Shown piece after piece: positions 5,101-27,800 of a DNA stretch of 39,121 nt. The DNA comes from Clostridiales bacterium (GTDB lineage Bacteria > Bacillota > Clostridia > Christensenellales > Pumilibacteraceae): the NCBI GenBank assembly GCA_029055565.1, contig JAIDCZ010000031.1:81083-120203 (forward strand), in the 5' to 3' direction. Both the position numbers and the translations under genes were made by a program. Position 1 is the first letter of the stretch, and each line of letters opens with the position of its first letter. Under the pieces are notes generated by a model, which did not search any database, had not been told where the DNA came from, and saw only the letters and a program-made list of their open reading frames with translations.

Positions 5101-7078
5101 CGTAACGTTCTACAACAACTATCCTAACGTTGAGACGGATACCGAATTCGATACTATAAGCGCCATAGACGGCGACACTATAACCGCGCCTACGACTGAT
5201 CCCGAGTATACCGGCTACACGTTCGACGGCAAGTGGTACAAGGATGCCGAGTGCACCGAGGAGTGGAATTTTGCAACCGATACCGTTACTGCAAACACCG
5301 ATCTGTACGCGGGCTGGACTATCAATAGCTACACAGTAACGATTGACTTAACCTACGCCGAACTGCCTACCGGCGCGAGCGTAGAAACGACGTACAGCAT
5401 TGCGTACGGCGATACGTTTACGCTTGCTGTAAGCGGTTTGACCGGCGACAACGGCAACGTTGCGTTGTACAAAAAGTACGAGCGCGGCGAGTTTAAGGAG
5501 CCTTATACCGATACGTTCGTAAGCGGCGATATTACGCTTTACGCTAAGTTCTATCGTAGCGACGGCGTGTACGTAAACAACGCAAAGAAAGCGGACTGGA
5601 CTGAAAATACTAACGTCGAGGACATGGCGTTGGGCGTAGAAGTGGCTACCGACGGTGCCGTAGTTACCGTTTGGCGCGACGGCGTTAAAGGTAAGGTTAA
5701 GGATGGCAATCCGTTTGCACTGGAGGGAACGGCTAATATAGAACTCGACAAGGGCGTTTACAACTTCTACTTAGACTATACCGTAACTAATGGCTTGTGG
5801 ATAGCGCTTTCCAATCATATAATCGAGTTTAACGCCAATGGCGGCACTCTAACCGGCGACGTTACCAAATTGTATACGGACGTAGTGAACACGAGCGGCA
5901 TAGGTATTTTATCAACGCTTCCCGCCAACCCGACGAAGGCCGGTTACCGCTTTGACGGTTGGTATACTGCGGCCGACGGCGGCAACCAAGTTACTGCGAC
6001 CAAGAACAATACGTTCTCGGCAAGCGCGACCTTGTACGCGCATTGGGTACAACAGTTTACCGTAACGTTTATCGCTACCGACGGTTCGTCGTGGACGGGT
6101 GGTGCGACAAAGATAGATATTCCGGTCGACGTAAATACGCCCATCGAGGAACAGACTGCTCCTCAAAACGCGCCGAGCGAAAAAATGTACGATTGCTGGA
6201 GCGAAACGGAAGGCTCGAGCGGTGGAGCTGCGTTTGACTTCTCCACGCTTATAACGCGCGACGTAACGCTGTACGTTCAGTGGAAAGATATACCTAATGA
6301 ACAAATTACCATCACGTTTGACGCTAACGACGGTAGTTGCGATACCGAGTCGGTAAACATTCCGGTCGGCGGCACGATTACTGAACTGCCCGAGGCGACG
6401 CGCGACGGTTATGCGTTTGACGGTTGGTATACCGAAGCTAATGGCGGTACAAAGATAACCACGGCAACGACGTTTAGCGAAGGCAAAACCGTATATGCGC
6501 ATTGGGTGCGTACGTATAGCGTAACGTTCAATGCAAACGGTGGTACCGGTACGGTCGACACTCAAACCGTCAGAACCGGCTTTAAGGCAAGCGTTCCTAC
6601 TCAACAGCTTACTCGAAGCGGATATACGTTCGCCGGCTGGTATACGGACGTGAACGGTGCAAGGAAGTACGACTTTGAAACTGCCGTAACCGGCAACGTC
6701 ACGCTGTATGCAAAGTGGTATTACAGCACGTTGCAGACGAATACGTACTACGTTGTCGGTGGCATGAACGGTTGGGGTCCCACGGTCGGATACGATCTTT
6801 CCGTAAATTCGTCCAAGGCTTCTAATTTCTATTCCGAGTACATTATATACGGAGTTGAGTTGAACGAGAACGACGAATTTAAGGTAGTGCTAAGGGATGG
6901 CAGTGGCAACGTTGATTGGAAAACGTTTGCAAACGAAAGTACCGACACTATAAGCGGCAGTACCGGAATGAGCGATAACAACTTCAAAGTTCTGGCAACC
7001 GGAACGTACAATATTCGGATTCACAACTACAACGACAACCATAACTGGTGGGCCATCGTTGTGGAAAAAGTAGCATAA
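2195..7078 (+). CDS. Giant secreted starch-binding/InlB-repeat surface protein with SipW-type signal
   Basis: A secreted protein of about 1627 residues. The N-terminus has a hydrophobic segment ending S-L-A-A-W, the same pattern as the two SipW-type proteins that follow. Residues about 198-308 resemble a CBM26 starch-binding module (an H-I-W strand, W-P-G-L-S-M, and L-N-N-D-N-G-I-Q-T). Residues about 800-1510 hold roughly eight InlB/Flg_new-type repeats (V-T-F-x-A-N-G-G ... G-Y-x-F-x-G-W-Y ... L-Y-A-x-W). The last 115 residues (Y-Y-V-V-G-G-M-N-G-W, then a G-T-Y-N-I-R-I strand) look like a SusE/F-type binding module. No LPxTG or C-terminal membrane anchor is seen. The start at 2195 is preferred because AGAGGG lies at 2186-2191; an in-frame ATG at 2171 has no ribosome site and would add eight residues. 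Likely role: surface adhesin/glycan binding; ligand inferred only. Confidence 0.82.
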   Translation: MQRVSRLKFIIFATIACVILFCIAAFSVSLAAWDGGSESPTQVAQSNAANFYFEYPQYTTEGGVAIPALDSKKYYLQVQKDAAKGVSDYYYMPVNTGDSDEVMLQHVYIRANTVLDVYKGTAKASIKIRNAVAAEEFVHAGTDANPTAGTTAYVTRSGYYDFYYNIYECKMYVSFTTGAPSAPTTSTGAPERDTSKDSVKVKFSDTTVVFKLDSHINEHTYFHIWKEDAQGTSWPGLSMDTNADAWATIGSDMKHSNSVEFDFPASEVTGIILNNDNGIQTGDGAVFFEAMFPDKLQANYTYSLAPSFGHWNDLTGAKDWGGDKLKEKFAITAIAPQTTTTGGGTATVITAAKPTTSGATAFDGADKKPNTSVETVRVMNAKTEEKTTADGKTVYQYSNYICVSRPGSDDEAATDNSLAIIEFEIKGENGVDLSKVNVNSITLMRRDTDDEGNPLSEYVVTSPRIYNYDPTSLVTLDKIGHGALHESFDDQDVLGKDTTHMKKHYDDGMYVVIYFADKKQQYFALDMIIETDAHAEFTLTAKINNTNMWDRYETGYGEEWGYYLGGLINDVWLWHPTRTTKFTTDEGNVKFDFVKEGQALGILDDGATATDVAPEKWQSLYTSGKAGNINDFNKNSDFNYVIVDYSDGGKNLDDSGYPMWARHTKDRVDISLTINLTVGSKVKLSMLDWSGQRGDIGNGLMRPTTYYLPNVIHAFPETLFNGADNYDKDLNFVIPKTGEYSFRFVGYVHDYVGKLMRRANGEIYFGDDTPANSSLYTQIPQYNFVIDELYISCSETVGTTYTVTFDAGVGGSFASGTVTEQKVRFGNLIDWSPAKAPQEDQIIAPADKEFDGWYYMRTNANGTQTAVDYDPGDPVLGDMTLIVKWKGSAHTVTFVGNGGKWGTDETKPIMTGSDGKIANADLPAKPQRDGYALVGWKDDNGKVITHEKLAGEIFATDTTLTAQWKQLFTVTFYNNYPNVETDTEFDTISAIDGDTITAPTTDPEYTGYTFDGKWYKDAECTEEWNFATDTVTANTDLYAGWTINSYTVTIDLTYAELPTGASVETTYSIAYGDTFTLAVSGLTGDNGNVALYKKYERGEFKEPYTDTFVSGDITLYAKFYRSDGVYVNNAKKADWTENTNVEDMALGVEVATDGAVVTVWRDGVKGKVKDGNPFALEGTANIELDKGVYNFYLDYTVTNGLWIALSNHIIEFNANGGTLTGDVTKLYTDVVNTSGIGILSTLPANPTKAGYRFDGWYTAADGGNQVTATKNNTFSASATLYAHWVQQFTVTFIATDGSSWTGGATKIDIPVDVNTPIEEQTAPQNAPSEKMYDCWSETEGSSGGAAFDFSTLITRDVTLYVQWKDIPNEQITITFDANDGSCDTESVNIPVGGTITELPEATRDGYAFDGWYTEANGGTKITTATTFSEGKTVYAHWVRTYSVTFNANGGTGTVDTQTVRTGFKASVPTQQLTRSGYTFAGWYTDVNGARKYDFETAVTGNVTLYAKWYYSTLQTNTYYVVGGMNGWGPTVGYDLSVNSSKASNFYSEYIIYGVELNENDEFKVVLRDGSGNVDWKTFANESTDTISGSTGMSDNNFKVLATGTYNIRIHNYNDNHNWWAIVVEKVA

Positions 7079-7159
7079 TTGAACGCCGTACCATCGTCGG
7101 GCGAGTAGACGGTAAACAACCGCAATAATAACGGAGTTTCTTAGGTAAGGAAACAGTCA

Positions 7160-8841: not shown

Positions 8842-11544
8842 ATGGGACTTATATCTTTTATAACGGGAAGTGATAACCGTCGTAACGTTAAGCGGTTGTC
8901 GGCCAAAGCGGAGCAAGTGCTTGCGCTCGAGGACAAGTTTGCCGCGATGTCGGACGACGAGCTGCGCGGAATGACCGAGCAGTTTAAAAAGCGGTACAAC
9001 GAGAACTTTGAAACGCTGGAGGATCTTTTGCCCGAAGCGTTTGCGGTAGTGCGCGAGGCGAGCTGGCGCGTACTGCATATGAAGCACTTTAAGGTTCAGA
9101 TTATGGGCGGTATCGCTTTGCACCAAGGCCGCATAGCCGAGATGCGTACGGGCGAGGGTAAAACGCTTGTGGCGACTCTACCCGCGTACCTTAACGCGCT
9201 TACCGGCAAGGGTGTGCATATAGTAACGGTCAACGACTACTTGGCGCGCTACGCCGCCGAGCTGGTCGGTAAAATTCACCGGTTCCTCGGACTTACAGTC
9301 GGCGTTGCCGTTTCGGGCATGCGTCCCGACGAAAAGCGCGCGGCGTACAACTGCGACATAACGTACGGCACCAACAACGAGTTGGGCTTTGACTACTTGC
9401 GCGACAACATGGTAGTGCGGCGCGAGGACATGGTTCAGCGCGATCTTGCGTTTGCCATAATCGACGAGGTCGACTCCATACTTATCGACGAGGCGCGCAC
9501 GCCGCTTATAATTTCCGGTCGCGGCGGCAAGAGCAGTGAAATGTACAGCCGCGCCAACCGTTTTGCACGGCGCTTGGTCGCGGACGAGGATTATGAAATA
9601 GACGAGAAAAAGCGGGCTATTAACCTTACCGAGCACGGTATAGAGCGCGCGGAAACGTACTTCGAGGTAGAGAATCTTGCGGATATAGAAAACACCGATC
9701 TTTACCATTACATTAACAACGCGCTTAAAGCGAACTTTATAATGCACCGCGATCAAGACTACATCGTCAACGACGGCGAGGTAGTTATAGTCGACGAGTT
9801 TACCGGTCGTCTTATGATAGGGCGTAGGTACAACGACGGCTTGCACCAAGCCATCGAGGCTAAGGAGAACGTGCGCATTCAGTCGGAAAACAAGACGCTT
9901 GCCACCATTACCTTCCAAAACTACTTCCGTTTGTACGACAAGCTGTCCGGCATGACCGGTACCGCCAAGACCGAGGAAAACGAGTTCCGGTCCATTTACA
10001 AGTTGGACGTCGTTACCATTCCCACCAACGTGCCCAGCCAGCGTATCGACGAAAACGATTTGCTGTTTATCAACACTGCCGGCAAGCTTCGCGCTATCGT
10101 AGCGGACATTAAGGAGTGCTACGACCGCGGTCAGCCGGTGCTCGTTGGTACGACCAACGTAGAAAAGAGCGAGGAGCTTAGCAAGATACTGCGGCGGGAG
10201 AAAATTCCGCACAACGTGCTTAACGCCAAAAACCACGCCAAGGAAGCGTTTATCATAGCGCAAGCGGGTAGACTGCACCAAGTGACCATAGCCACCAACA
10301 TGGCCGGTCGTGGTACGGATATTATGCTTGGCGGTAACGCCGAGTTTATGGCTAAGGAGCGCATGCTTAAGGACGGCTACGCGGAGGAAGACATTGACGC
10401 CGCTGCGTCGGTGTTCCCCGCGCAGAACGAGATTATAGCCAAGGCGCGCGAGTTGTATCAAAAATATATGGACGAGTTCAAGACCGAAATAGCCGCCGAA
10501 AAGGAGAAGGTTATAGCTGTCGGCGGTCTGCGCATTATCGGTACCGAGCGGCACGAGTCGCGGCGTATCGACAACCAGCTTCGCGGTCGTGCCGGCCGTC
10601 AAGGCGATATAGGTTCGTCCATATTCTATCTTTCGTCCGAGGACGACGTGCTTCGGCTTTGGGGCGACAGACTGAAAAAGGTTATGGCCATGTTCAAGGT
10701 GGACGAGGATACGCCGCTGGAGGCCAAAATTCTTACCAAGCAGATCGAGAACGCGCAACGCAATATAGAGGGGCGCAACTTCTCTATCCGTAAATCCGTT
10801 CTCGAATACGACAACGTTATGAACACCCAGCGCGAAATTATTTACGCCGAGCGCAGTAAGGTTCTTAAGGGAATGCCTATGCGCGACGAGATTCTTAAAA
10901 TTTTGCGCGAGCGTTGCGACATGGTTGTGGACGCCAGCACCGATCCCAAGGTCGATTACGACGAGTGGGATTCCGAGGCGCTTAACCGCGATATAGAGCG
11001 CAAGTTCTTGCCCGAGGTTAAGGAATTCTTTGACGAGGACAAGCTGAAAAACTACACCGTAGACGAGCTTAAGGACATGCTGTACGACAGTGTTTTGGCG
11101 ACCTACCAAGCCAAAATCGACGAGGCTACCGCGCACAACGTCAACTTCGAGGAGATAGAGCGGTACGTCATGCTTCGCGTCGTCGACCAGAAGTGGATGG
11201 ACCACATCGACAACATGGACGCGCTTCGCGGCGGCATCGGACTCAAGGCGTACGGGCATCAAGATCCCGTTATTGCGTACCAGCAAGAGGGCTTTGAAAT
11301 GTTCGACGAAATGATAAACAACATTCACGAGGACGTTATAGTTATGCTTATGCACGCCAACGTGGAATATCCGCCCGAACCGCCTAAGCAAGAAACCGTG
11401 CTCGTGGAAAACCACGGCGACGGCGAGCGCCACGTTCAAGACACCGTGGTTACGCCCAAAACCAAGCAAGTCGGCCGTAACGACCTTTGTCCGTGCGGTA
11501 GTGGCAAAAAGTACAAAAACTGCTGCGGCAAAGACGAGGAGTAA
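8842..11544 (+). CDS. secA: Preprotein translocase ATPase SecA
   Basis: The motor ATPase that drives unfolded preproteins through the SecYEG channel at the inner face of the membrane. The 900-residue length is normal. Visible marks: Walker A M-R-T-G-E-G-K-T near residue 100, the D-E-V-D-S-I-L-I-D-E-A-R-T-P box near 208, the helicase-type N-M-A-G-R-G-T-D motif, and R-G-R-A-G-R-Q-G-D. The C-terminus has the zinc/SecB-binding motif C-P-C-G-S-G-K-K-Y-K-x-C-C-G. A GAGGT ribosome site lies just before the ATG. In many Firmicutes secA lies directly before prfB; here a tRNA-like gene and a DUF2828 gene on the other strand separate the two. Identification is certain. Confidence 0.98.
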   Translation: MGLISFITGSDNRRNVKRLSAKAEQVLALEDKFAAMSDDELRGMTEQFKKRYNENFETLEDLLPEAFAVVREASWRVLHMKHFKVQIMGGIALHQGRIAEMRTGEGKTLVATLPAYLNALTGKGVHIVTVNDYLARYAAELVGKIHRFLGLTVGVAVSGMRPDEKRAAYNCDITYGTNNELGFDYLRDNMVVRREDMVQRDLAFAIIDEVDSILIDEARTPLIISGRGGKSSEMYSRANRFARRLVADEDYEIDEKKRAINLTEHGIERAETYFEVENLADIENTDLYHYINNALKANFIMHRDQDYIVNDGEVVIVDEFTGRLMIGRRYNDGLHQAIEAKENVRIQSENKTLATITFQNYFRLYDKLSGMTGTAKTEENEFRSIYKLDVVTIPTNVPSQRIDENDLLFINTAGKLRAIVADIKECYDRGQPVLVGTTNVEKSEELSKILRREKIPHNVLNAKNHAKEAFIIAQAGRLHQVTIATNMAGRGTDIMLGGNAEFMAKERMLKDGYAEEDIDAAASVFPAQNEIIAKARELYQKYMDEFKTEIAAEKEKVIAVGGLRIIGTERHESRRIDNQLRGRAGRQGDIGSSIFYLSSEDDVLRLWGDRLKKVMAMFKVDEDTPLEAKILTKQIENAQRNIEGRNFSIRKSVLEYDNVMNTQREIIYAERSKVLKGMPMRDEILKILRERCDMVVDASTDPKVDYDEWDSEALNRDIERKFLPEVKEFFDEDKLKNYTVDELKDMLYDSVLATYQAKIDEATAHNVNFEEIERYVMLRVVDQKWMDHIDNMDALRGGIGLKAYGHQDPVIAYQQEGFEMFDEMINNIHEDVIVMLMHANVEYPPEPPKQETVLVENHGDGERHVQDTVVTPKTKQVGRNDLCPCGSGKKYKNCCGKDEE

Positions 11545-11663
11545 TTTTTACTTTCGTGTGTTTACTGAGTAATTGATTGTGCGTTGCGCCCGAGTAAGTT
11601 TGTATCAATAAAAATTACGCGACGCCACGTATTTAATTCAGAATTAGGAATTAAGAATTCAGA

Positions 11664-11775
11664 ATTGTGGCGGCTTTGCCGCATTAAGGTTGAGATTCCT
11701 CGCGTTGCTCGGAATGACAAAAGTCCTACGAAGCGCTGAATGTATTCCGAGCATTTTTTGCCCACCGAGGAATCT
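11664..11775. repeat. Structured intergenic repeat with nested inverted repeats
   Basis: It starts with the same ATTGTGGC...ATTAAGG...GAGATT core as 8445-8479. Then AGATTCCTCG (11693-11702) pairs with CGAGGAATCT (11766-11775), and inside it TGCTCGGAAT (11706-11715) pairs with ATTCCGAGCA (11744-11753). The GGAATGACA segment is typical of small dispersed palindromic repeats. No ORF is present. Confidence 0.6.
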
Positions 11776-11800
11776 TAACGTAATTATCTATAAACAACAT

Positions 11801-11832
11801 AAAACCACATGCTTGATTGCATGTGGTTTTTG
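11801..11832. terminator. Bidirectional terminator between secA and the DUF2828 gene
   Basis: AAAACCACATGC (11801-11812) pairs with GCATGTGGTTTT (11819-11830), with A and T tracts on both sides. It can end secA on the plus strand and the DUF2828 gene on the minus strand. Confidence 0.85.
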
Positions 11833-11843
11833 ATTTACTCGTA

Positions 11844-13373
11844 TTATTTTTGAGCCGATTTAAACGCTTTTTCCACGGCGGCGTAGCGCGGCGCGTTTAT
11901 TTGGTCCAGTAGGCATTTGTACGGATCGAGCGAGCCGGATAGAACCATTGACAGCACAATCGGGCTGAACCCGCTTATGAGTGCGACGCCCATATCGTTG
12001 GTTTTGAGCGGCACGGTGCGCGTGCGACTGCAAATGTTCCAGAATATCAAGCGGGGAAGCTTGTAGCCGTGTTGCTCATAGCGCGCTCCGATTTCCTCAA
12101 ATAGGCGATTATCCACCTTGCTGCGCTCGTCGTCGGCATTGGTTACGGCGCAACCGTCAAACTCCATGTCGGAGAGTATAAGCACGCTTGCCGGCAGTTC
12201 GCTTTGCTTCATTTTGTGCTTGACCGCAGTCGTCAAAATAAGATCGAATACCGCTTCGATATTGGTGTTGGCCGCCTCGGAATGGGTGAGCGCTAATGCC
12301 AGCTTGTCGTGCAGACTGTTGCAGTGCGCAAAGCTGACGATTTGCGGGTTTTCGCTGAACGTTATATACGTGTCCTTGAACTGGCCTTTGCAACGTTCGG
12401 CAAAGTATATAGCCAATGCGTTGGCAACCTCCAACGCCGTAAGATTAGTGTTGCCGACGTGCATGGTCATGCTTCCCGATCCGTCCGCTACGCACAGCGT
12501 GGTGTCGTTGCCCTCAACGTAGTCGGGCAGTGCCTTCCATAGCATTTCCGTAGTTTCGTCTTGCGGCTTGATTGCCCAGAAGTCGGTGTACTTGTGCACG
12601 ACGTCGTGGGGGAATAAGACCGACGCGTTTATTTTCGTTTCGCCGCGCTTCAGTGCTTCGAGGTACTTTTTGCGCCGCTTTTCGTCGTGCTTTAAAAACG
12701 CTTTGCCGTACAGTAGGTTGGCCTTGCTCGGCACCTTGGCGTACTGTATTTTGCTCCACGCGTTGGCGCTCGTCGCTACTTCCGTTACGCCAACATACTT
12801 GCGCAAGCCGCTCAGCGTTTGGCGGTACTGCTTTGCCGTCATGCCGAGTTCGGACATGACGAGCTTTGCAAGCGCGCGCGTTTGCTCCGACGTCGCGTTT
12901 ATTGACGGCAACCATTTGGCGAGTAGCGATACCGGCTTGCCCTCGGATTCGTTTCGTATATCCGCGTTCAACTGCTTTTTGATTATTTTTGCAACGTCGC
13001 TTTTGAGCGCGGTGTTTAGCAGTAGCACCAAAGTGTCCCAGCGCGTGTATTTGGGTATTAGCGGCAACAGAGCTTTTGCAAGCTTTGGCTCACTGCCGGC
13101 TAAGGCGTACATGCACAGTCTGAACAGTCTGCGTTCGCCCATACCGCCGCGCACGTCGCCGGCAAAAAACAACCACTTCGTTGCGAGCAGTTTATCCTCG
13201 TAGAACGCGCGGGAAAATACGTTTACGACTTCCGCCGCCGAAACGTTCCTAAGCGACGACACGGCAAAATTGAGGTCGAGTAATTCTCGACCGGTCGTGC
13301 GGTAGCCGACCGCGCCGTTTTCCGTCAGCGAAAGATTGAACTCGTCGTTCGCGACCGATTGGAGATTTTTCAT
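11844..13373 (-). CDS. DUF2828 family protein: HEAT-like domain plus vWA (Ro/TROVE-like layout)
   Basis: 509 residues. The N-terminal half is helical with DUF2828 signatures (G-D-V-R-G-G-M-G-E-R-R-L-F-R, L-L-A-K-W-L-P-S-I-N-A, V-P-S-K-A, K-I-N-A). The C-terminal half is a von Willebrand A fold: MIDAS D-G-S-G-S-M near residue 295, I-T-F-S-E-N-P-Q, L-S-D-M-E-F-D, and a closing A-L-I-S-G-F-S-P motif. Function in bacteria is unknown to me. The HEAT plus MIDAS-vWA layout resembles Ro60/Rsr RNA-binding proteins. The gene lies 157 bp downstream of a tRNA-like gene on the same strand, and no separate promoter is evident. The start is uncertain: the ATG at 13373 has no ribosome site close by, while GGAG is ideally spaced for an in-frame ATT six codons upstream. 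Confidence 0.85.
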   Translation of the reverse strand: MKNLQSVANDEFNLSLTENGAVGYRTTGRELLDLNFAVSSLRNVSAAEVVNVFSRAFYEDKLLATKWLFFAGDVRGGMGERRLFRLCMYALAGSEPKLAKALLPLIPKYTRWDTLVLLLNTALKSDVAKIIKKQLNADIRNESEGKPVSLLAKWLPSINATSEQTRALAKLVMSELGMTAKQYRQTLSGLRKYVGVTEVATSANAWSKIQYAKVPSKANLLYGKAFLKHDEKRRKKYLEALKRGETKINASVLFPHDVVHKYTDFWAIKPQDETTEMLWKALPDYVEGNDTTLCVADGSGSMTMHVGNTNLTALEVANALAIYFAERCKGQFKDTYITFSENPQIVSFAHCNSLHDKLALALTHSEAANTNIEAVFDLILTTAVKHKMKQSELPASVLILSDMEFDGCAVTNADDERSKVDNRLFEEIGARYEQHGYKLPRLIFWNICSRTRTVPLKTNDMGVALISGFSPIVLSMVLSGSLDPYKCLLDQINAPRYAAVEKAFKSAQK

Positions 13374-13417
13374 GAAGTCGTTCGTAATGGTTTTCTCCGT
13401 GTGGTGAGTGAATAGAT

Positions 13418-13504
13418 AATAGATAAGAGATAAGAGATAATAATACAAAGCGGCGATAGTATTATCCGCTAATTTTATTTATTCATTTTTATCTCTTATC
13501 TATT
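13418..13504. repeat. 16-bp perfect inverted repeat
   Basis: AATAGATAAGAGATAA (13418-13433) is the exact inverse of TTATCTCTTATCTATT (13489-13504), with an inner ATAATAC/GTATTAT pair. It lies between the tRNA-like gene and DUF2828 and would fold in their joint transcript. The AGATAAGAG units look like slippage-type expansion. Confidence 0.65.
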
Positions 13505-13530
13505 CTATTAGGCGCATTTGCGCTGCTTTG

Positions 13531-13644
13531 TGGGAGCGGCGGGACTCGAACCCGCAACCTCTGGCTTTTGATACAAAAAACTTGCTGTTTGGGATTATTT
13601 CTAACCCCGTTTCTCCGCGCGCTACCAAATTGCGCTACGCTCCC
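13531..13644 (-). tRNA. tRNA-Pro-like gene with anticodon arm replaced by about 50 nt (tRNA mimic or interrupted tRNA)
   Basis: On the minus strand a 7-bp acceptor stem (GGGAGCG/CGCTCCC), TA, a 4-bp D stem (GCGC/GCGC with a T-T-G-G-T loop), and a 5-bp T stem (GCGGG/CCCGC) with loop TTCGAGT and discriminator A are all perfect, as in a proline tRNA. CCA is not encoded. Between the D arm and the variable loop there are about 57 nt instead of 17, with no pairing 5-bp anticodon stem. This part can form GGGGTT/AATCCC and TTTTG/CAAAA hairpins instead. Total length is 114 nt. A strong promoter precedes it. It could be a tRNA with an unusual insertion, a tRNA-shaped non-coding RNA, or a pseudogene; the anticodon cannot be assigned. 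Confidence 0.55.
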
Positions 13645-13655
13645 ATGCGTATGGT

Positions 13656-13686
13656 ATTATATAACATAATTATTAGTTTATGTCAA
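13656..13686 (-). promoter_or_regulatory. Promoter of the tRNA-like gene
   Basis: Minus-strand TTGACA (13686-13681). A TATATA box lies at 17-bp spacing (13663-13658) and an overlapping TATAAT at 19-bp spacing (13661-13656). Either places the transcription start a few bases before the tRNA-like 5' end, arguing that the locus is transcribed. Confidence 0.65.
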
Positions 13687-13711
13687 TAGGTGTGCGATAG
13701 TTTTTCGTTTG

Positions 13712-13753
13712 ATATTCTATTAAAGCGTTTGTTTTTTCAAAAGGCTTGACTTA
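13712..13753 (+). repeat. Direct repeat of the prfB promoter upstream half, copy 1
   Basis: 42 bp matching 13818-13859 at 35 positions, including the AAAAGGCTTGACTTA end that carries the -35 box. The hairpin repeat copy C sits immediately after this copy, where a -10 box would be, so this promoter half is inactive. Confidence 0.65.
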
Positions 13754-13803
13754 CTTCTTTTGAAAAAGAAGTAAGCAAGAAAACTTTACACAAGTTTTTG
13801 TGC
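13751..13803 (-). repeat. Hairpin repeat, copy C (reverse orientation)
   Basis: Palindrome TTACTTCTTTT / AAAAAGAAGTAA (13751-13774), then GCAAGAAAACTTT and a decayed partner arm up to 13803. Same family as 88-139 and 22048-22089, inverted. It lies between two copies of the prfB promoter upstream half. Confidence 0.7.
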
Positions 13804-13817
13804 GTAAGCGTAATTGC

Positions 13818-13859
13818 ATATTCTATTAGTTTCTTTGTTTTTATAAAAGGCTTGACTTA
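13818..13859 (+). repeat. Direct repeat of the prfB promoter upstream half, copy 2
   Basis: Second copy, 106 bp after the first. Its TTGACT is the working -35 box of prfB. Confidence 0.65.
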
Positions 13860-13880
13860 AATTGGGTTTGCGGATATAAT
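13852..13880 (+). promoter_or_regulatory. prfB promoter, predicted leaderless
   Basis: TTGACT (13852-13857), 17-bp spacer, TATAAT (13875-13880). The ATG begins at 13890, 9 nt after the -10 box, and there is no ribosome binding site, so a leaderless mRNA is predicted. Confidence 0.75.
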
Positions 13881-13889
13881 ATATTCGTA

Positions 13890-14987
13890 ATGGATATTGA
13901 AGAATGCACGAGCAAAATACTCGGCGCCAAGACTATGGTTGATGGCGCGTACGCGGCCGTAGCGCCCGACAAGCTGAAGGAGCGGCGGGCGTATCTTGCC
14001 GAGCGCCAAAACGATCCCAATCTTTATTCCGATCCCAAGGAGGCGCAAGCGGTAAACAGCGAGGCCAAGTATATAGACGGCACGCTTGCCAAGTTTGACA
14101 AGCTGTTCCAAACCGCTACCGATTTGCTGGGCATGGCGGAGCTGTTGGGTGTTGAATCCGACCCCGAGCTGTTGCAAGAGTTATACGCCGAAACGGACGC
14201 GTTTTGCGCCGCGGCGGAGGAGGCGCAGATTTCGGCGCTGTTAAAGGGTGAGTACGACAAGTCCAACGCCATACTTTCCTTGCACGCGGGCGCCGGCGGG
14301 ACCGAGGCGCAAGACTGGGTGTCGATGCTGTTTCGCATGTACAAGATGTATTGCGACAAGGCCGGCTACGCCGTGGAAGTGATAGATAGGCTGGACGGCG
14401 ACGAGGCGGGAATAAAGAGTATAACGTTTATTGCGCGCGGCATAAACGCGTACGGCTATCTTAAGGCCGAAATGGGCGTGCACCGTTTGGTGCGCATATC
14501 ACCGTTTGACGCCAACGCGCGGCGGCATACGTCGTTTGCCAGTCTTGAGGTTATGCCCGAAATTAAGGACGACGTAACTGTTACAATCAATCCCGACGAC
14601 ATTCGCGTAGACACCTACCGCAGTAGCGGTGCGGGCGGTCAGCACATAAACAAAACGGACTCGGCCATTCGCATTACGCACTTTCCCACCGGCATAGTGG
14701 TTACTTGCCAAAACGAGCGCAGTCAGACCCAAAACCGCGAGATGGCTATGACCATGCTAAAGAGTAAGCTCGTCGAGCTGAAGGAGCGCGAGGCCGCGGA
14801 CAAGGCCGCCAGCCTTAAGGGCGTGCTTAAAAAAATAGAGTGGGGCAGTCAGATACGCTCGTACGTGTTCCAGCCGTACACGCTGGTAAAAGACCACCGC
14901 ACCGAGTTTGAAAAAACGGACATTCAGTCCGTTATGGACGGAAATATCGAGGGCTTTATTCTTGACTACCTTAAAAAAGCGAACTGA
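13890..14987 (+). CDS. prfB: Peptide chain release factor 2
   Basis: Recognises UGA and UAA stop codons and triggers peptide release on the ribosome. The 365-residue length is that of full RF2. The stop-recognition tripeptide S-P-F (in R-I-S-P-F-D, near residue 207) identifies RF2 rather than RF1, and the catalytic G-G-Q loop (S-G-A-G-G-Q-H-I-N) is present. The frame is continuous: there is no internal TGA near codon 25, so the usual programmed +1 frameshift control of RF2 is absent. It is probably transcribed with tsaD, whose ATG begins one base after the prfB stop. Identification is certain. Confidence 0.97.
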   Translation: MDIEECTSKILGAKTMVDGAYAAVAPDKLKERRAYLAERQNDPNLYSDPKEAQAVNSEAKYIDGTLAKFDKLFQTATDLLGMAELLGVESDPELLQELYAETDAFCAAAEEAQISALLKGEYDKSNAILSLHAGAGGTEAQDWVSMLFRMYKMYCDKAGYAVEVIDRLDGDEAGIKSITFIARGINAYGYLKAEMGVHRLVRISPFDANARRHTSFASLEVMPEIKDDVTVTINPDDIRVDTYRSSGAGGQHINKTDSAIRITHFPTGIVVTCQNERSQTQNREMAMTMLKSKLVELKEREAADKAASLKGVLKKIEWGSQIRSYVFQPYTLVKDHRTEFEKTDIQSVMDGNIEGFILDYLKKAN

Positions 14988-17263: not shown

Positions 17264-20101
17264 ATGAAAAAGAAGTTTTTTGTTAGCTTAGTTTCCGCGG
17301 TGTGCGCTACGGCTTGTACGTTCGGGCTGGCGGCGTGCGGCGGACATGACCATGATTTTATGGCGCAGTATACATATAATTCGGAGTACCATTGGCGGCA
17401 GTGCAGTAGCTGCAAGGAGAAGTTGGACTATTCCAAGCACGTGATAGGAGGCGACAGTTGCGGGGTGTGCGGCTACGAGTTCGATCAAGGCGCGTTGGGT
17501 GGCGATACCGATGGTGATAGCGCCTTTTCCGGCGTTGCGGTTTCGGACGGCGGGGTGCTTAGCTGGAACAAGATTAAGGGAGCGAGTAAGTACGTAATCA
17601 AGGTTACTTACGCCGCCGAAAGCGAGCCTACGGAATACGAAATAGGGAGTGACGAAACGACCGCAAACCTTAACGAGCTGCGTGCCGAGGAGTTCCCTTC
17701 CGGCAAGTCCACAGTGGAGCTTACGGCGTACGAAAACGCTAAGGTGACTATAGGCAATCAGACCGAGTACCAAGAGGTGCCTATGACCGGCGTTAAGCAG
17801 ACCTTCCGCATAGTCAAAAGCAACGGCAGTTTTTCGTTGGTTCGGCTTTCGTACGCCGACGATAATATATTGCTTGACGGATTTTACGCCGAAAAGCAAA
17901 CGGTGGGCGACAAGAGCGTTTATCTTTACGAGCAAGCGCTCAAGGACAATCAGCCTATGACTCTAAAGATTACCGGCGTAGTAAAGGCGACAGCCGGCCA
18001 TACCGTAGATTTTTACAAGACCGAGGCGGGACGTAACGCCGGCAATTCCGCAGACATATGGAATTCGTTTGAACTGCAAATGGGTTATCCGCAAGTACTG
18101 CACGGCGCCAACTTCTATTACGTACGCGTAACCGACGCCGCGACCGGCACCACACAAGATTACGACTTGTGCGTATACGGCGTTTACACCGTTACTATAC
18201 GGCGGTACTATACTTCCTTTTACAATGACGCTAACGGACTGCGCGTATACGAGCACTCGCCCATAGGCAACGATTTGGTATTTAACGAAATGGATATAGT
18301 GCCGCAAGACGCGATGTACGACGGCGTGGATAACGGCAAGCTTGGCCGTTCGTCAGACTATGAGGTTGTGGAAAAGCGGGATATGACCTTGCTTACCGAT
18401 TCGACCGAAATACAATATTACTTTTACGATGAGGACGTAGTTCGCGCCGATTGCCGCGAGTACGCGGACTGGAGTAAAACATATAGTCTTGCCCAAGTGA
18501 ACGGCGGCTGGCGCATTGCGTGCAAGCAGTCGACAGTCGGCATAGCGAGCTTGCCCAACGCCATAATAGGCACCAAGGTAGTCGCCGCCGATTATTCATA
18601 CTCCGCAATAAGCGCACTCGTTGTGGAGGAGGGCGCAAGCACGCTGGTGGCAACCTTTACCGACTGCTTTTCGCTGTTGAATATTTTTCTGCCGAGCACG
18701 ATTACCGAAATGCGCAAAAATTCGTTTGCCGGCGTGAACACCGAGGTCACCGTAAACTGCGCGTTTACGAGCGAAAAGGCGAGCGAGTTTACTTTGTACT
18801 GGGATTACGGCGTAAGCAAAAAAGTAAAAACTACGTACGGCGTGGCTGTGCCAAACAACGCGCTGGCCATAGCCGACGGCTTGGTGTTTGCCGCTACGGA
18901 CAAGAACGACGAGGTTAGCGTGACCGCGGCTATCGGTGGCTTTGCCGGTACGATTCCGTCAACCGTGACGGTGGGCGATAAGTCGTATAACGTTACGCGT
19001 ATAGATGGACTGGGCACGGTGCCGTCGCTTGCGATAGGGGAGAGCATTAAGGAGATAGCGGACGGCGCCTTGAACGGCGTGCAAAACGTGACGGTCGCCG
19101 ACGGCAATAGGTATTTTAAGCGCGACGGAGATATAGTGTACGGCTACGACGGCACGCGACTGCTGCGCGTATTGAACGGCGGGCAAACCACCGAGTTTAC
19201 CGTTGACGAGCATGTGACGAGTATGGACTGCGGCGCGCTGTCCGGCTTGACGAGCTTGCAAAGCTTGACTATACACTTCGTCGGCGCGGCGGTAGGCGAT
19301 ACGAAAAACAACTATATCGGTTATGCGTTCGGCGCGCAAACGGCAAACGACAATAACGATTTCGTTCCGGCTACGCTACGCACGGTTACGATTGCCGGCG
19401 GCGGCGTGATAGGCGAGCTTGCGTTTACCCACTGCTCCGGCATATCCGAAGTGACGGTGGGCGGCGTTACGACTATCGGCAACGGCGCGTTTTACAGCTG
19501 TGACGGACTGCTTAGCGTAACGATGCTAAGCGACGTGACCGCTATCGGTAACGGCGCGTTCCGTAGCTGCAGCAGACTGTCGAGCGTGCAGCTATCCGGC
19601 GGCTTGGAATCTATCGGCGATAGTGCGTTCGAGAGTTGCTTCGCGCTGTCGAGCATAGTCATCCCGCAAGGCGTAAGGTCCATAGGCTACAAAGCGTTCT
19701 ACCAATGCTCGTCGCTGAAAAATATATCCGTACCGGACAGCGTTGACGAAATAGGCAGCGAGGCGTTTAATCTTACCGACTGGTTCTACAGTCAGTCCGA
19801 TGCCCTTATCTACGCCGGCAAGGTTGTGTTGCGCTACAAGTGCACTACGCCTAATACGGCGCTCGTACTCGAGCAAGGCACTACCGGCATTGCCGACAAC
19901 GCGTTCAACGTTTACGGCAGTAGCGGACCGATTAGCATTACTATTCCGTCAACCGTTACTTATATAGGTTACGGCACGCTTAGCTATTGCAATAACGATA
20001 TAACCTTTAACGGTACAAAGGCGCAGTGGAACGCTATTCGCATTCGCGACGACGCCGACGGCTACGTAGTCCATTGCACCGACGGCGATATAACCAAATA
20101 A
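17264..20101 (+). CDS. BspA-type leucine-rich-repeat lipoprotein
   Basis: 945 residues. The signal peptide ends L-A-A-C (lipobox), so it is a membrane-anchored surface lipoprotein. Residues about 35-75 have a zinc-ribbon-like set, H-W-R-Q-C-x-x-C, then H and C-G-V-C-G. The middle part has beta-domain character with no family I recognise. From about residue 560 on there are BspA/LRR_5 repeats of about 23 residues (pattern I-G-x-x-A-F-x-x-C-x-x-L-x-x-V-x-L). Such repeats serve adhesion or surface recognition. GGGAG precedes the ATG. It is flanked by the XRE repressor and its operators, so expression is probably switched on by a specific signal. Confidence 0.85.
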   Translation: MKKKFFVSLVSAVCATACTFGLAACGGHDHDFMAQYTYNSEYHWRQCSSCKEKLDYSKHVIGGDSCGVCGYEFDQGALGGDTDGDSAFSGVAVSDGGVLSWNKIKGASKYVIKVTYAAESEPTEYEIGSDETTANLNELRAEEFPSGKSTVELTAYENAKVTIGNQTEYQEVPMTGVKQTFRIVKSNGSFSLVRLSYADDNILLDGFYAEKQTVGDKSVYLYEQALKDNQPMTLKITGVVKATAGHTVDFYKTEAGRNAGNSADIWNSFELQMGYPQVLHGANFYYVRVTDAATGTTQDYDLCVYGVYTVTIRRYYTSFYNDANGLRVYEHSPIGNDLVFNEMDIVPQDAMYDGVDNGKLGRSSDYEVVEKRDMTLLTDSTEIQYYFYDEDVVRADCREYADWSKTYSLAQVNGGWRIACKQSTVGIASLPNAIIGTKVVAADYSYSAISALVVEEGASTLVATFTDCFSLLNIFLPSTITEMRKNSFAGVNTEVTVNCAFTSEKASEFTLYWDYGVSKKVKTTYGVAVPNNALAIADGLVFAATDKNDEVSVTAAIGGFAGTIPSTVTVGDKSYNVTRIDGLGTVPSLAIGESIKEIADGALNGVQNVTVADGNRYFKRDGDIVYGYDGTRLLRVLNGGQTTEFTVDEHVTSMDCGALSGLTSLQSLTIHFVGAAVGDTKNNYIGYAFGAQTANDNNDFVPATLRTVTIAGGGVIGELAFTHCSGISEVTVGGVTTIGNGAFYSCDGLLSVTMLSDVTAIGNGAFRSCSRLSSVQLSGGLESIGDSAFESCFALSSIVIPQGVRSIGYKAFYQCSSLKNISVPDSVDEIGSEAFNLTDWFYSQSDALIYAGKVVLRYKCTTPNTALVLEQGTTGIADNAFNVYGSSGPISITIPSTVTYIGYGTLSYCNNDITFNGTKAQWNAIRIRDDADGYVVHCTDGDITK

Positions 20102-24817: not shown

Positions 24818-27800
24818 ATGGCTAAAAAAGTTGCCGTTCCCGACGAGAGCGAGATTGAGCGCAACGGCGGAGTTAAAAAGAAGAAAAAGCGTAATTGTTG
24901 CTGCACATGCTGTTTGGTCGTGATTATAATTATGCTCGTATTATTTTTGGGCGCGTTCATAACGGGCTGGATTTTGGGTGACAAATATACCAAAAAGCTT
25001 TTCGGTCTATCTATGGGTGACACGCTGGGCGTGGTAGGCGACTTGTACTGGACGGACGATTCCGACGTCGTTACTCGGCCGTATACCAAAAAGGACCTCA
25101 ACGGATTTTACAACGAAATCAAGCGTAATATATTTCTTAAGGATGATACTGAAATAGATTTTCAGTCGGCGTTGGACGCGGCTATAGACAAGTTTTTGAA
25201 CGATGACGGCAATGGTAACGCCGGCGATGCGGCGCCTCAGCTGAATGCGAGCGCCGCCGCGGCCGGCGGTGCCGACGGCAACCAAAACAACACCAACGAA
25301 TCGGATATAACGGATATTTTCGTCAATATGATAGTCGGCGTGCTCAACCGCGAACACATAGACGTTGAACGGCTTAACCGCTATCCCGACAAGGACGAAT
25401 ATATATTCGAGCTTAACGACAAACAGCTTGCGGCGTTTGTCAATACAGTGCTGCAATCGGTGCTGAAAAAAGCGGTCGATATGGACTCGCTAAAAGATAT
25501 TTCGGCAATGGTTAGGCTGGACAAGGTGGTCGGGCTTAAGCAAATCCGATTTACCGCCAAGTCGGTAAAGGCCGCTGGCGGCGCAACCGAGGTAAAGGCC
25601 GCTTCGGCGGAGATTACCGTTTGGCTGGGCTTGCAGTCTGCCGCCAACCAAGCTATAAAAAAGTTTTTGTACGACGCCAAGCAAGGCTGGGCTGGCGGAC
25701 TCGTGGGTTGGCTGGGTGACGTTATATTGCCCGAAAATCTGTACCTTACGGTGTCGGTTCCGTTGTACGGCGAGGACAACGTGGCGTCGATACGCATAAA
25801 CGATATGAACTCTAACGAGCGCGCCAGAGCCAACAAGCTTATTAACGGAATAATCAAGCTTATGAACGACGGCAAAGAGTCCAAAACGCTGGACGACGTT
25901 ATAGACGATTTCGTAGGACGAATACGCCCTATGCTCGAGCTGGCCGCCGAGCATATGAACTTTTCCGAGGCGGGCAAGGGCACTATACGAGTGGATTTGC
26001 TGGAAGCCGTTGCCAAGGTCGCAAGCGACAGCTTGCCGGAAGGCGAGTCGCTTACCAAGGCCGACTTTTTGTACGTGCTTCAAGCGCTGTTTTCGGATAA
26101 GGCCGAGCAGTTGAAGTCGCTCGAACCGTTCCGTTACGACAACTGGTACGAGGTGGACGGCGAAATCAAGTATATGCCGACCGGCGGCAGCGCTGAGAAC
26201 AAGGTGGACTACGAGCGGCTGTTTATCGAGCAGATAGAGGATAAGTACGCCTTAGACCTCGGTGAGAGCAAAAACCTAAACGAAGTGCTGGAAATGCTGG
26301 GCATATCGCTGGACGGCAACGGCGGCAATATGGGTTCTACCGACTTGCTCGACAGAGTGAACGGCACTCGGTTTAACGCATTGCTCAACGCGAACATAAA
26401 CGACATCAAGCTCAACGTGACCGACAGAATGCTGGGCGCGGCGTTTTCCGGACAGATGGATAAGCTTCTTGCCGGCAACGAGAATTTGAAAAACATGGAT
26501 TTGACTTTGGACGCGTTGACGTTCGTCAAAAAGAGCGATCCCCAAAAGGCCAATCATCTTTACGCGCTACTCGCCGTGGAGGTTGACGTAAGCGGTATGC
26601 TCGGCGAAATGACAAGCGACGATGAAACGATTGGCAAGCTCGTAAAGGGGCTTATGCCGGAAAGCATTTTGCTCACCGTCACAGTCGATATTACGCGCGA
26701 CCAAAGCGTTACGCGCGACCAAGCCGAGTTCGTTATCAATTCTTGCCAAAACACCGACCGCGTGCTCGACGTATTGGAAAAGCTAGTGCCCGATATTAAG
26801 CTCTGCGAAGTGTCGGATAGTATCAGCACCACGCTCAACGAAATGCTCGACCAAATGGAAAGTAAGCTGGCAATACGGTTGGCCGCTACTACGTACGAGT
26901 ATAACGACGACCTCAATAAGTGGGTGGGCGCAAGCGGCGCTATAATATTGCCCGATATATTCACCGTCGTTACAGACATGGTGCTGGTGGATGAGCGCGG
27001 CAACAAGATAGTTACTTCCGAGCAGCTTCAGCACGTAATACGCGACCTAAACAATCCCGCCGATATAGCGGAGGTTAAGCCGACAGGCTACGGCGACTTT
27101 ATTGCCGACGTGTTTGACAAATACTATTTGACCGATCCGACCAAGCTATCCGAACCTCAACCGGCCGTAACCGACTTTAAGGGTTTGACTGCGTATATGC
27201 AAGACTTTAAGGTAGAGAAATTGCGCGTTCAAGGCAAGGACGGACTGGCGCACGACGATAGAGCGATGTCTGCACTTCGGCCGGTAATGAGCGAAAACGA
27301 AGTGCTTGCTCTGCTCAAGGACAACATGGGCGGCAAGGACGCTATTCAATCCTACAATATAGTCAAGGTCGATATAGGCGACGACGCGCTGTCAGTAACG
27401 CTGTCCGTCGAACTTAGCAGTCTGCTTACCGACGCGCAACAAGTGCAAAAGCTGATTACCGCAACCGAGCTGTACGCGACGGCAACCTTCCACACCGACC
27501 GCGTGATAGGCGACGGTACGGCGGATAATCCGTACGGCTATCAAGTTTCGCTTGCGATTGACGTTCAACGCCAAGGCGAAAATACGGTTATGGATAGCGA
27601 TACCTACGGCGCCATGCTAAATATAGTCAAGTTCTTTGCGGCCGACTTCGATATAGAAAGTCAAGTAAAAGAATTCGGCGTTATACTGTACGAGCAAATG
27701 AACAACCTTAACGAAAGCATTGGCGGCAGTGCCGAGCACAAGCTGTTTACGTTCACGTCGAGCGGGTTGGAGCTGACCGACTTCTACACCTTCCTCGCAC

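Follow-up and report, generated by a model that had tools for sequence, protein, structure and literature searches.

A tRNA-like RNA beside a predicted Ro-fold DUF2828 protein in Clostridia and phages: a candidate pair of the Ro-Y RNA type

Introduction

A stretch of 39,121 nucleotides (nt) from a Clostridiales bacterium (GenBank assembly GCA_029055565.1, contig JAIDCZ010000031.1, positions 81,083 to 120,203 of the forward strand), here called the window and numbered from its first nucleotide, carries on its minus strand an RNA gene with the arms of a transfer RNA (tRNA) and, next to it, a gene for a protein of the families DUF2828 and DUF7788. The host genome has 1.64 Mb and is 76% complete. 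The question raised by this locus is whether the two genes form an RNA-protein system parallel to the Ro proteins and their Y RNAs, as the initial annotation of the sequence had proposed. In the available part of PMC7790460 it is stated that until 2020 the functions of bacterial Ro proteins and Y RNAs had been studied in Deinococcus radiodurans only. Our analysis supports the proposal by the predicted protein fold, the linkage of the two genes, their co-occurrence and a conserved RNA module, and we consider it probable that the locus encodes a two-part particle of the Ro-Y RNA type, composed of a DUF2828 Ro-fold ring and an unpermuted tRNA-like RNA with a docking arm. The RNA has a tRNA fold with its tertiary signature, and a circularly permuted twin form of it exists. 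This permuted form, the ACAGCAA module, the RNA arrays and the Ro-like label that phage members of the protein family already bear had all been missing from the first reading.

Results and discussion

Architecture of the tRNA-like RNA

The RNA comprises 114 nt including the discriminator A (13531-13644, minus strand), as delimited by direct reading of its arms, by our covariance model R1 and by comparison with relatives (loci L032-L035). The acceptor, D and T arms, which had been described as perfect, were each confirmed directly in the sequence: the acceptor stem GGGAGCG/CGCTCCC (13644-13638 and 13538-13532) has 7 pairs and is followed by the discriminator at 13531, the D stem GCGC/GCGC (13635-13632 and 13622-13619) has 4 pairs with GG in the loop, and the T arm GCGGG-TTCGAGT-CCCGC (13555-13539) has 5 pairs. 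The interval from the D stem to the T stem measures 63 nt (13618-13556), compared with about 22 nt in an ordinary tRNA. It had been given as an "unstructured or rebuilt" block of 50 nt; rebuilt is the correct description and unstructured is not, as the interval contains a conserved 7-bp hairpin and the motif ACAGCAA. The strand that joins the D stem to this hairpin is ten nt long (13609-13618) and is A-rich in many relatives in our alignment A5. The hairpin itself, GGGGTTA-GAAA-TAATCCC with a GAAA loop (13591-13608), replaces the anticodon arm and is a putative docking helix. ACAGCAA follows two nt further on (13582-13588) and is succeeded by a 26-nt tail, in which ATCAAAA stands at the place expected for the anticodon loop. 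This vestigial anticodon-like loop has two closing pairs (13564-13574) and aligns with the anticodon loops of relatives; an anticodon arm with five pairs and a 7-nt loop was not found in the window RNA.

The RNA folds better than its shuffled versions (z -2.6) and scores 97.8 bits with R1, the training set of which includes it. ARAGORN called 0 tRNA genes in the window, and Rfam returned nothing at its gathering cut-offs. With relaxed cut-offs the sole match on the RNA was transfer-messenger RNA (tmRNA) with 20.5 bits, well below the cut-off of 47. That the RNA is a remnant of a tmRNA is hardly credible given this score, the presence of a D stem and the lack of a common tag frame by eye in five aligned relatives, and the identification was rejected. 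The other relaxed matches in the window (STnc370, Qrr and the rest) have E values of 0.17 or worse and were likewise discarded.

Upstream of the RNA we noted promoter-like boxes, TTGACA (13686-13681) and TATAAT (13661-13656), on the minus strand (13656-13686 in total) with a spacer of 19 nt, or of 17 nt if TATATA is taken instead. A TTGACA and a TATA box were seen by eye upstream of the RNA in all five carriers of the genus (L031-L035), and a consensus promoter scan did not flag them. The same scan detected no promoter or terminator on the minus strand between the RNA and the protein gene.

The neighboring gene encodes a predicted Ro-fold protein

The protein gene spans 11844-13385 on the minus strand. 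Pfam assigns DUF2828 (E 5e-32) and DUF7788 (E 5e-41) to its product and no other family; NCBIfam gave no match, and a sequence search against solved structures yielded nothing below E 0.5. The AlphaFold model (predicted local distance difference test score 85) shows a HEAT ring plus vWA fold along the entire chain, and the ten top matches of a fold search with this predicted model were all Ro60/TROVE structures. Residues D297, S299, S301, T370 and D402 are invariant across 35 sequences and correspond to what we take to be the metal-ion-dependent adhesion site (MIDAS) motif DxSxS...T...D. Both the architecture claimed at the outset, HEAT-like repeats with a MIDAS-bearing vWA domain, and the suggested comparison with Ro60 fared well in this analysis, and we describe the protein as a predicted Ro-fold ring of HEAT-like repeats and a vWA domain with MIDAS residues. 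In a protein tree the chromosomal DUF2828 clade has a support of 100/100.

The gene had been annotated from an ATG at 13373 (11844-13373). Alignment with relatives makes an ACG at 13385-13383 the likelier start, which lies behind the Shine-Dalgarno sequence GGAG (13398-13395) and aligns with the ATG of farther relatives. Five members of the genus (the window and L046-L049) have ACG behind GGAG, or GAGG in L049, where the farther relatives start with ATG, and a conserved non-canonical ACG start in the genus is possible from this comparison. The spacing of 157 nt between the RNA and the gene on the same strand, counted to the ATG at 13373, agreed on re-reading with the original value.

Linkage and co-occurrence

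Within the genus the protein is present in 5 of 20 genomes. A DNA search with the RNA region in 61 genomes gave matches in 9, among which the five long ones belong to exactly the five protein-carrying genomes and lie in each case directly upstream of the protein gene; the other four genomes matched with pieces of 23-43 nt only. The five RNAs have the hairpin, ACAGCAA, the promoter-like boxes and the arms in common, and in the D and T stems they show compensatory changes. Among 74 genomes of the family, 10 carry the protein and 7 the RNA (R1, E <= 1e-12), all of the latter being protein carriers in which the RNA adjoins the protein gene (Fisher p 7e-8, uncorrected for relatedness). In 398 genomes of the phylum we found the protein in 8 (in G398 as broken pieces only) and the RNA in 2, both carriers; this RNA scan scored nine candidates per genome, and misses are possible. 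At six further phylum loci ACAGCAA was found just upstream in five. The pair is linked and co-occurs across carriers. A TROVE gene is present in 2 of the 20 genus genomes, neither of which has DUF2828; in the stretches around these two genes no RNA of the window's kind was found, as they contain one ACAGCAA each and the R1 matches there consist of one true tRNA and two hits at 17-18 bits.

The pair, with both genes on the minus strand, is wedged between secA (8842-11544) and prfB (13890-14987), both on the plus strand, and its description as an insertion holds for the sister genomes, most of which show a short gap at this site. In 12 of the 14 genus non-carriers in which the prfB locus was visible, secA and prfB are 3-441 nt apart; in G019 the gap is 1433 nt, and in G003 the site is at a contig end and the gap unmeasurable. 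A T-arm pattern was found at the secA-prfB site in 0 of the 14, so that the intact tRNA-Pro which might have marked the RNA as a decayed tRNA did not appear. ACAGCAA occurs twice on the relevant strand in the non-carrier sites, both times within secA. Since the site is empty in the sister genomes, the pair is best read as an insertion and not as a decayed tRNA, as judged from these sequences. A tRNA gene that has decayed or acquired a small insertion or intron, with DUF2828 adjacent by chance or as a splicing factor, is a very improbable explanation. It would fit that the flanks of the insert read as a clean tRNA in some relatives (e.g. of Arg UCU type, L054 and L058) and that ARAGORN finds tRNA-Pro with agg and cgg but not with tgg among 30 host tRNA loci of this incomplete genome. 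The insert is nevertheless conserved and covarying, the same module occurs on permuted and on non-tRNA RNAs, and over half of the aligned RNAs have no full anticodon hairpin (see below). A pseudo-tRNA-Pro in particular is largely refuted by the empty site in sisters together with the conserved insert.

Covariation in wider relatives

Two peptide patterns derived from the alignment of five proteins were scanned over 84,980 species genomes and led to 40 loci, nearly all Clostridia by title and including near-duplicates. A descriptor scan of the upstream regions detected RNAs of the same plan at most of them. Alignment A5 (n=40) comprises the window RNA and 39 of 52 candidates; 13 were excluded by hand as near-copies, over-long or shifted (L047, L051:2306, L056, L058:3438, L061:3392, L062:3628-3769, L063, L065, L068:3716, L071, L076 and two of L082). 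Since the search descriptor already contained the acceptor, D and T helices, their pairing counts are not independent, whereas the insert hairpin, the lower anticodon pairs, the anticodon hairpin and the Levitt pair played no part in the selection. The insert hairpin (helix 4) is paired in 91.4% of cells and shows changes on both sides at 7 of 7 pairs. Taken over the whole structure, covariation scores 0.67, compared with 0.20 in shuffles and at most 0.18 with slid partners. The tRNA tertiary signature is well kept, with U8 in 39, A14 in 40 and the D-loop GG in 40 of the 40 RNAs; the Levitt pair is present in 38, against a maximum of 36 in 10,000 shuffles.

A full anticodon hairpin is kept in 18 of the 40 RNAs and lacking in 22, the window RNA being among the latter. 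The 18 kept hairpins (A5 columns 109-115, L050-L085) have U33 in 18, A37 in 17, A38 in 17 and U36 in 14 cases; the loops are mostly U36-A37, the type of ANN-decoding tRNAs, a count that is inflated by related copies. Up to four tRNA-like RNAs of the window's plan per locus occur in Lachnospiraceae. In this family we also observed an extra RNA with a closing stem like GGAGTGG/CCACTCC and an ACAGCAA (or GCAGCAA) module and without a T arm, a member of the set that is not tRNA-like (L055:3388-3479, L059:1933-2025, L051:2049-2146, L062:3374-3468, L085:3482-3583).

R1 was trained on 40 of these RNAs. It gives a match of at least 61.6 bits at 31 of the 40 loci, whereas true tRNAs, scored at 22 of the host's 30 tRNA loci, reach 61.5 bits at most. 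The first reading had held that a lack of tRNA-like sequences near the DUF2828 genes of relatives would speak against the pair; such sequences are common there. DUF2828 genes of Cronobacter phage S13, of a gut phage fragment and of a different family within the phylum also have RNAs of R1 type at their side, none of which belonged to the training set.

ACAGCAA is the most widespread heptamer at DUF2828 loci

For 56 DUF2828 genes, 40 cellular and 16 from phages or plasmids, all 7-mers on the strand of the gene were tallied up to a distance of 1.5 kb. The latter were hand-picked: 13 come from a list of 40 out of the 682 phage records (among 50,697) that contain the protein family, and 3 are of 4 plasmids; two of these phages, LeBron and Netyap, are relatives. 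Across all loci taken together ACAGCAA is the most widespread 7-mer, present at 50 of the 56, followed by GGTTCGA with 45. It is found at 35 of the 40 cellular loci (tied with GGTTCGA) and at 15 of the 16 phage and plasmid loci (tied with AAGAAAA), with 122 copies in total. On the opposite strand it occurs at 11 of the 40 cellular loci and at 0 of the 16 others.

Phage and plasmid copies: a circularly permuted form of the tRNA-like RNA

In the unpermuted form the helix adjoining ACAGCAA is a hairpin, whereas in most phage and plasmid copies the helix partner lies about 26-119 nt downstream. When only Watson-Crick pairs were admitted, a partner on either side was found for 29 of 36 phage or plasmid copies and for 48 of 86 cellular copies, with controls at 12-13%; the upstream hairpin was detected in just 20 of the 86 cellular copies, perhaps due to the G-U pairs present in many stems, including that of the window. 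With G-U pairs allowed the contrast is weaker than with Watson-Crick pairs only: a downstream helix of at least 7 pairs is found in 29 of 36 phage copies versus 56 of 180 controls, and in 40 of 86 cellular copies versus 123 of 430 controls.

Between the two strands of this helix, a permuted tRNA is present at eight loci with ten elements: L093, L094, L096, L102, L105 and L106 from phages or plasmids (6 of 16) and the chromosomal L067 and L069. The order is T arm, 3' acceptor strand, a loop of 3-10 nt, 5' acceptor strand and D arm, and the Levitt pair is present in 9 of the 10 elements. Their closing stems were checked by eye; in L106 the motif reads TCAGCAA. Neighboring unpermuted units read across the gap between them (e.g. 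L050, L053, L054, L085, L103) and three matches lacking the motif (L098, L099, L102:9107) were not counted. The unpermuted, window-type RNA is present at two phage loci, L103 and L107, and the remaining phage and plasmid loci have stems without a tRNA (e.g. L099, L100, L101) or no clear RNA. Both permutations present the same local layout of helix, ACAGCAA strand and opposing strand.

Cronobacter phage S13 (L103) has, near its Ro-like gene, two genes annotated as tRNAs, one of 121 nt (6900-7022) and one of 113 nt (7030-7144). As RNAs of the window type they score 80.3 and 70.2 bits, their inserts contain CAGCA, and these two over-long tRNA genes can be re-annotated.

The phage copies also bear on whether the RNA acts as a 5' leader, a structured part of the DUF2828 mRNA through which the bound protein would regulate its own expression. 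Such a leader would fit the layout of the window, where the RNA precedes the gene on the same strand with no promoter or terminator flagged between them, and the odd ACG start behind a good Shine-Dalgarno sequence could fit translational control. In mycobacteriophages LeBron and Netyap, in the FelixO1-like phage AYO145A and in Cronobacter phage S13, however, near-gene copies lie downstream of the gene. Several copies per locus likewise speak against a leader, and a tRNA-like particle better explains the covarying 7-bp acceptor stem and the Levitt pair. We regard a cis-acting leader as improbable.

Proposed particle and the evidence weighed

For the two-part particle we propose the following course of events. 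The RNA would be transcribed from its own sigma-A-like promoter, its acceptor ends would probably be trimmed by ordinary tRNA processing, and it would fold as a tRNA-like L. The ring would hold it through the docking module, i.e. the helix followed by NN-ACAGCAA, often with an A-rich strand opposite. The acceptor and elbow end would stay free and either recruit a tRNA-binding partner or gate the ring against misfolded RNA; for an RNA docked on the ring, this role of the tRNA-like end as a tether or gate is somewhat favored over others. The partner in the sole studied bacterial Ro system is PNPase, and a PNPase gene is present in the host genome. We infer that the protein binds the RNA via the module, and the same holds for processing, partner and a purpose in RNA surveillance or decay.

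Several points weigh against this particle. The support for a contact between RNA and protein is computational. At most chromosomal loci a cis-acting leader would account for the linkage, taken alone, as well. Carriers that are related do not count as independent, and the matches of R1 to RNAs of its own training set are circular. The TROVE profile PF05731 had no match in the host genome at E <= 0.001 (as a control, it matched in 1 of 14 genomes, Deinobacterium chartae). Three of the ten family carriers (G071, G090, G072) lack an R1 match; in the examined stretch ACAGCAA copies are present in G071 and G090, and no motif at all was found in G072. ACAGCAA is missing at 6 of the 56 loci (L051, L084, L052, L080, L081 and phage L095), of which L051 and L084 show GCAGCAA, the upstream DNA of L052 is limited to 149 nt and L080 is a 3.1-kb contig. 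The sole copy lies within an annotated gene in L108 (phage XaC1) and within an open reading frame in L079, where it may be due to chance, and a few other copies are also within neighboring genes. In the clade L078-L081 (Kineothrix and relatives) no clear RNA was seen at 3 of 4 loci, L080 being a short contig; the RNA may be dispensable there, or the protein may act alone or with a different RNA.

As to purpose, the main rival is an anticodon-nuclease decoy or sensor, in which the RNA would serve as bait, or be freed from the ring when tRNAs are cut, during attack by phages or toxins. We think this unlikely, though a real contender, and it could be the purpose of the same ribonucleoprotein (RNP) and not a separate object. 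It would account for the 18 RNAs with a full anticodon hairpin of ANN-decoding type, for the arrays of up to four RNAs and for the setting of several phage copies, which lie amid tRNA genes, and for the enzymes encoded nearby, namely RtcB and an RNA ligase in Listeria phage LP-083-2 and an RNA ligase in XaC1. The majority of the RNAs, including that of the window, lack the hairpin it calls for, and no RtcB was found among 20 neighbor proteins of chromosomal loci, 7 of which had no Pfam family match. PADLOC gave no match for the protein, which also argues against a decoy; a defence system was discarded on this result and on neighbors that are mostly ordinary or without family. A possible defence gene among the neighbors is that of the SNF2/ResIII helicase beside L070. 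As the 20 proteins show no common neighbor, the cassette seems to stand alone.

A broader picture, which we hold to be somewhat less likely than not, can be offered tentatively. DUF2828 RNPs may form a separate branch of Ro, with one docking module on a tRNA fold in two permutations; the unpermuted form would then be evidence that YrlA-type RNAs arose from tRNA genes that first gained a docking hairpin within the anticodon stem and were then permuted, or that the path ran the other way; arrays in which anticodon loops are kept would be tRNA baits in a Ro ring. To our knowledge the origin of Y RNAs is an open question, and the unpermuted RNA opens a direct route to ask whether they descend from tRNAs.

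Other features of the window

A terminator-like hairpin (11801-11830, minus strand) follows right after the protein gene in the consensus scan, which is not functional evidence. Between it and secA, at 11640-11800, lies a repeat with inverted ends that has 62 matches in the host genome including itself and may be a miniature mobile element; a stretch resembling it is present between secA and prfB in G007. A protein of 945 aa with BspA-type leucine-rich repeats is encoded at 17264-20101 on the plus strand.

Comparison with known systems

Phage members of the family are already called Ro-like in records and in print, and Y RNAs have been suspected beside the Listeria phage protein. The phrog_850 "Ro-like RNA binding protein" (Listeria phage CKA15_055, mycobacteriophage LeBron gp53) belongs to the same family as the window protein. 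According to the available part of the CKA15 paper of 2025, CKA15_055 matches Rsr by HHpred and was detected in purified virions with 20 peptides that cover 57.1% of it. Up to 2 kb upstream of its gene, on the same strand, are three regions of high transcription, an independent hint of expression, and the authors give Y RNAs as one explanation for them, for which biochemistry is needed; Y RNAs of mycobacteriophages are treated there as known, citing Chen 2014 (PMC12282133). That part defines no RNA motif or structure and no chromosomal clade with arrays of unpermuted RNAs (PMC12282133). CKA15 DNA is 97.7% identical to that of LP-083-2, where we found the Ro-like gene to be immediately preceded by three ACAGCAA stems. 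Also upstream of this gene in LP-083-2 (L099, 3432-3983) is a sub-threshold match to ROOL RNA (87.4 versus 99.1 bits), and the CKA15 region 26,236-26,727, among the most-read, would map to this match, assuming OR088597 coordinates, and is then probably not a Y RNA.

With Ro60/Rsr (TROVE, PF05731) the window protein shares the predicted HEAT ring and vWA fold and the MIDAS residues; it differs in having no TROVE sequence match and in belonging to families of its own, DUF2828 and DUF7788. Compared with tRNA (RF00005), the RNA has the acceptor, D and T arms, U8, A14, GG, T-loop and Levitt pair, but carries about 40 extra nt with the hairpin and ACAGCAA, its anticodon arm is missing or displaced, and ARAGORN does not call it. 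YrlA (RF02553) is described, in the parts of the papers available, as a tRNA-like domain plus a stem formed by the ends of the RNA (PMC8394870) and as circularly permuted relative to tRNA (PMC11472068). The window RNA resembles it in its tRNA-like D, T and acceptor elements, in a separate putative Ro-docking stem and in its place beside a Ro-like gene. The permuted twins have the YrlA topology, with ends that pair as a stem, whereas the window RNA is the other circular permutation: here the acceptor stem is made by the ends, and a capped hairpin in the interior serves as the putative docking stem; the YrlA consensus is without ACAGCAA. The Rfam YrlA model matched several permuted elements in full length, at best with 45.9 bits against a cut-off of 69, and 0 of 8 phage or plasmid records pass; on the window it gave nothing at gathering and no match up to E 5 in 11400-14000.

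The open-access literature we searched contains no description of a window-type RNA. A tRNA fold and a Ro fold are each ordinary; it is their combination that is undescribed, as far as this literature goes. The cassette is neither TROVE by sequence nor YrlA by topology or score. It adds to the known Ro proteins a second family of this fold, recognizable by an RNA signature of its own; the presence of this family in many Clostridia and phages opens a wide choice of hosts for tests of the particle, and from the ACAGCAA module one can predict the site at which a Ro-like ring would hold its RNA.

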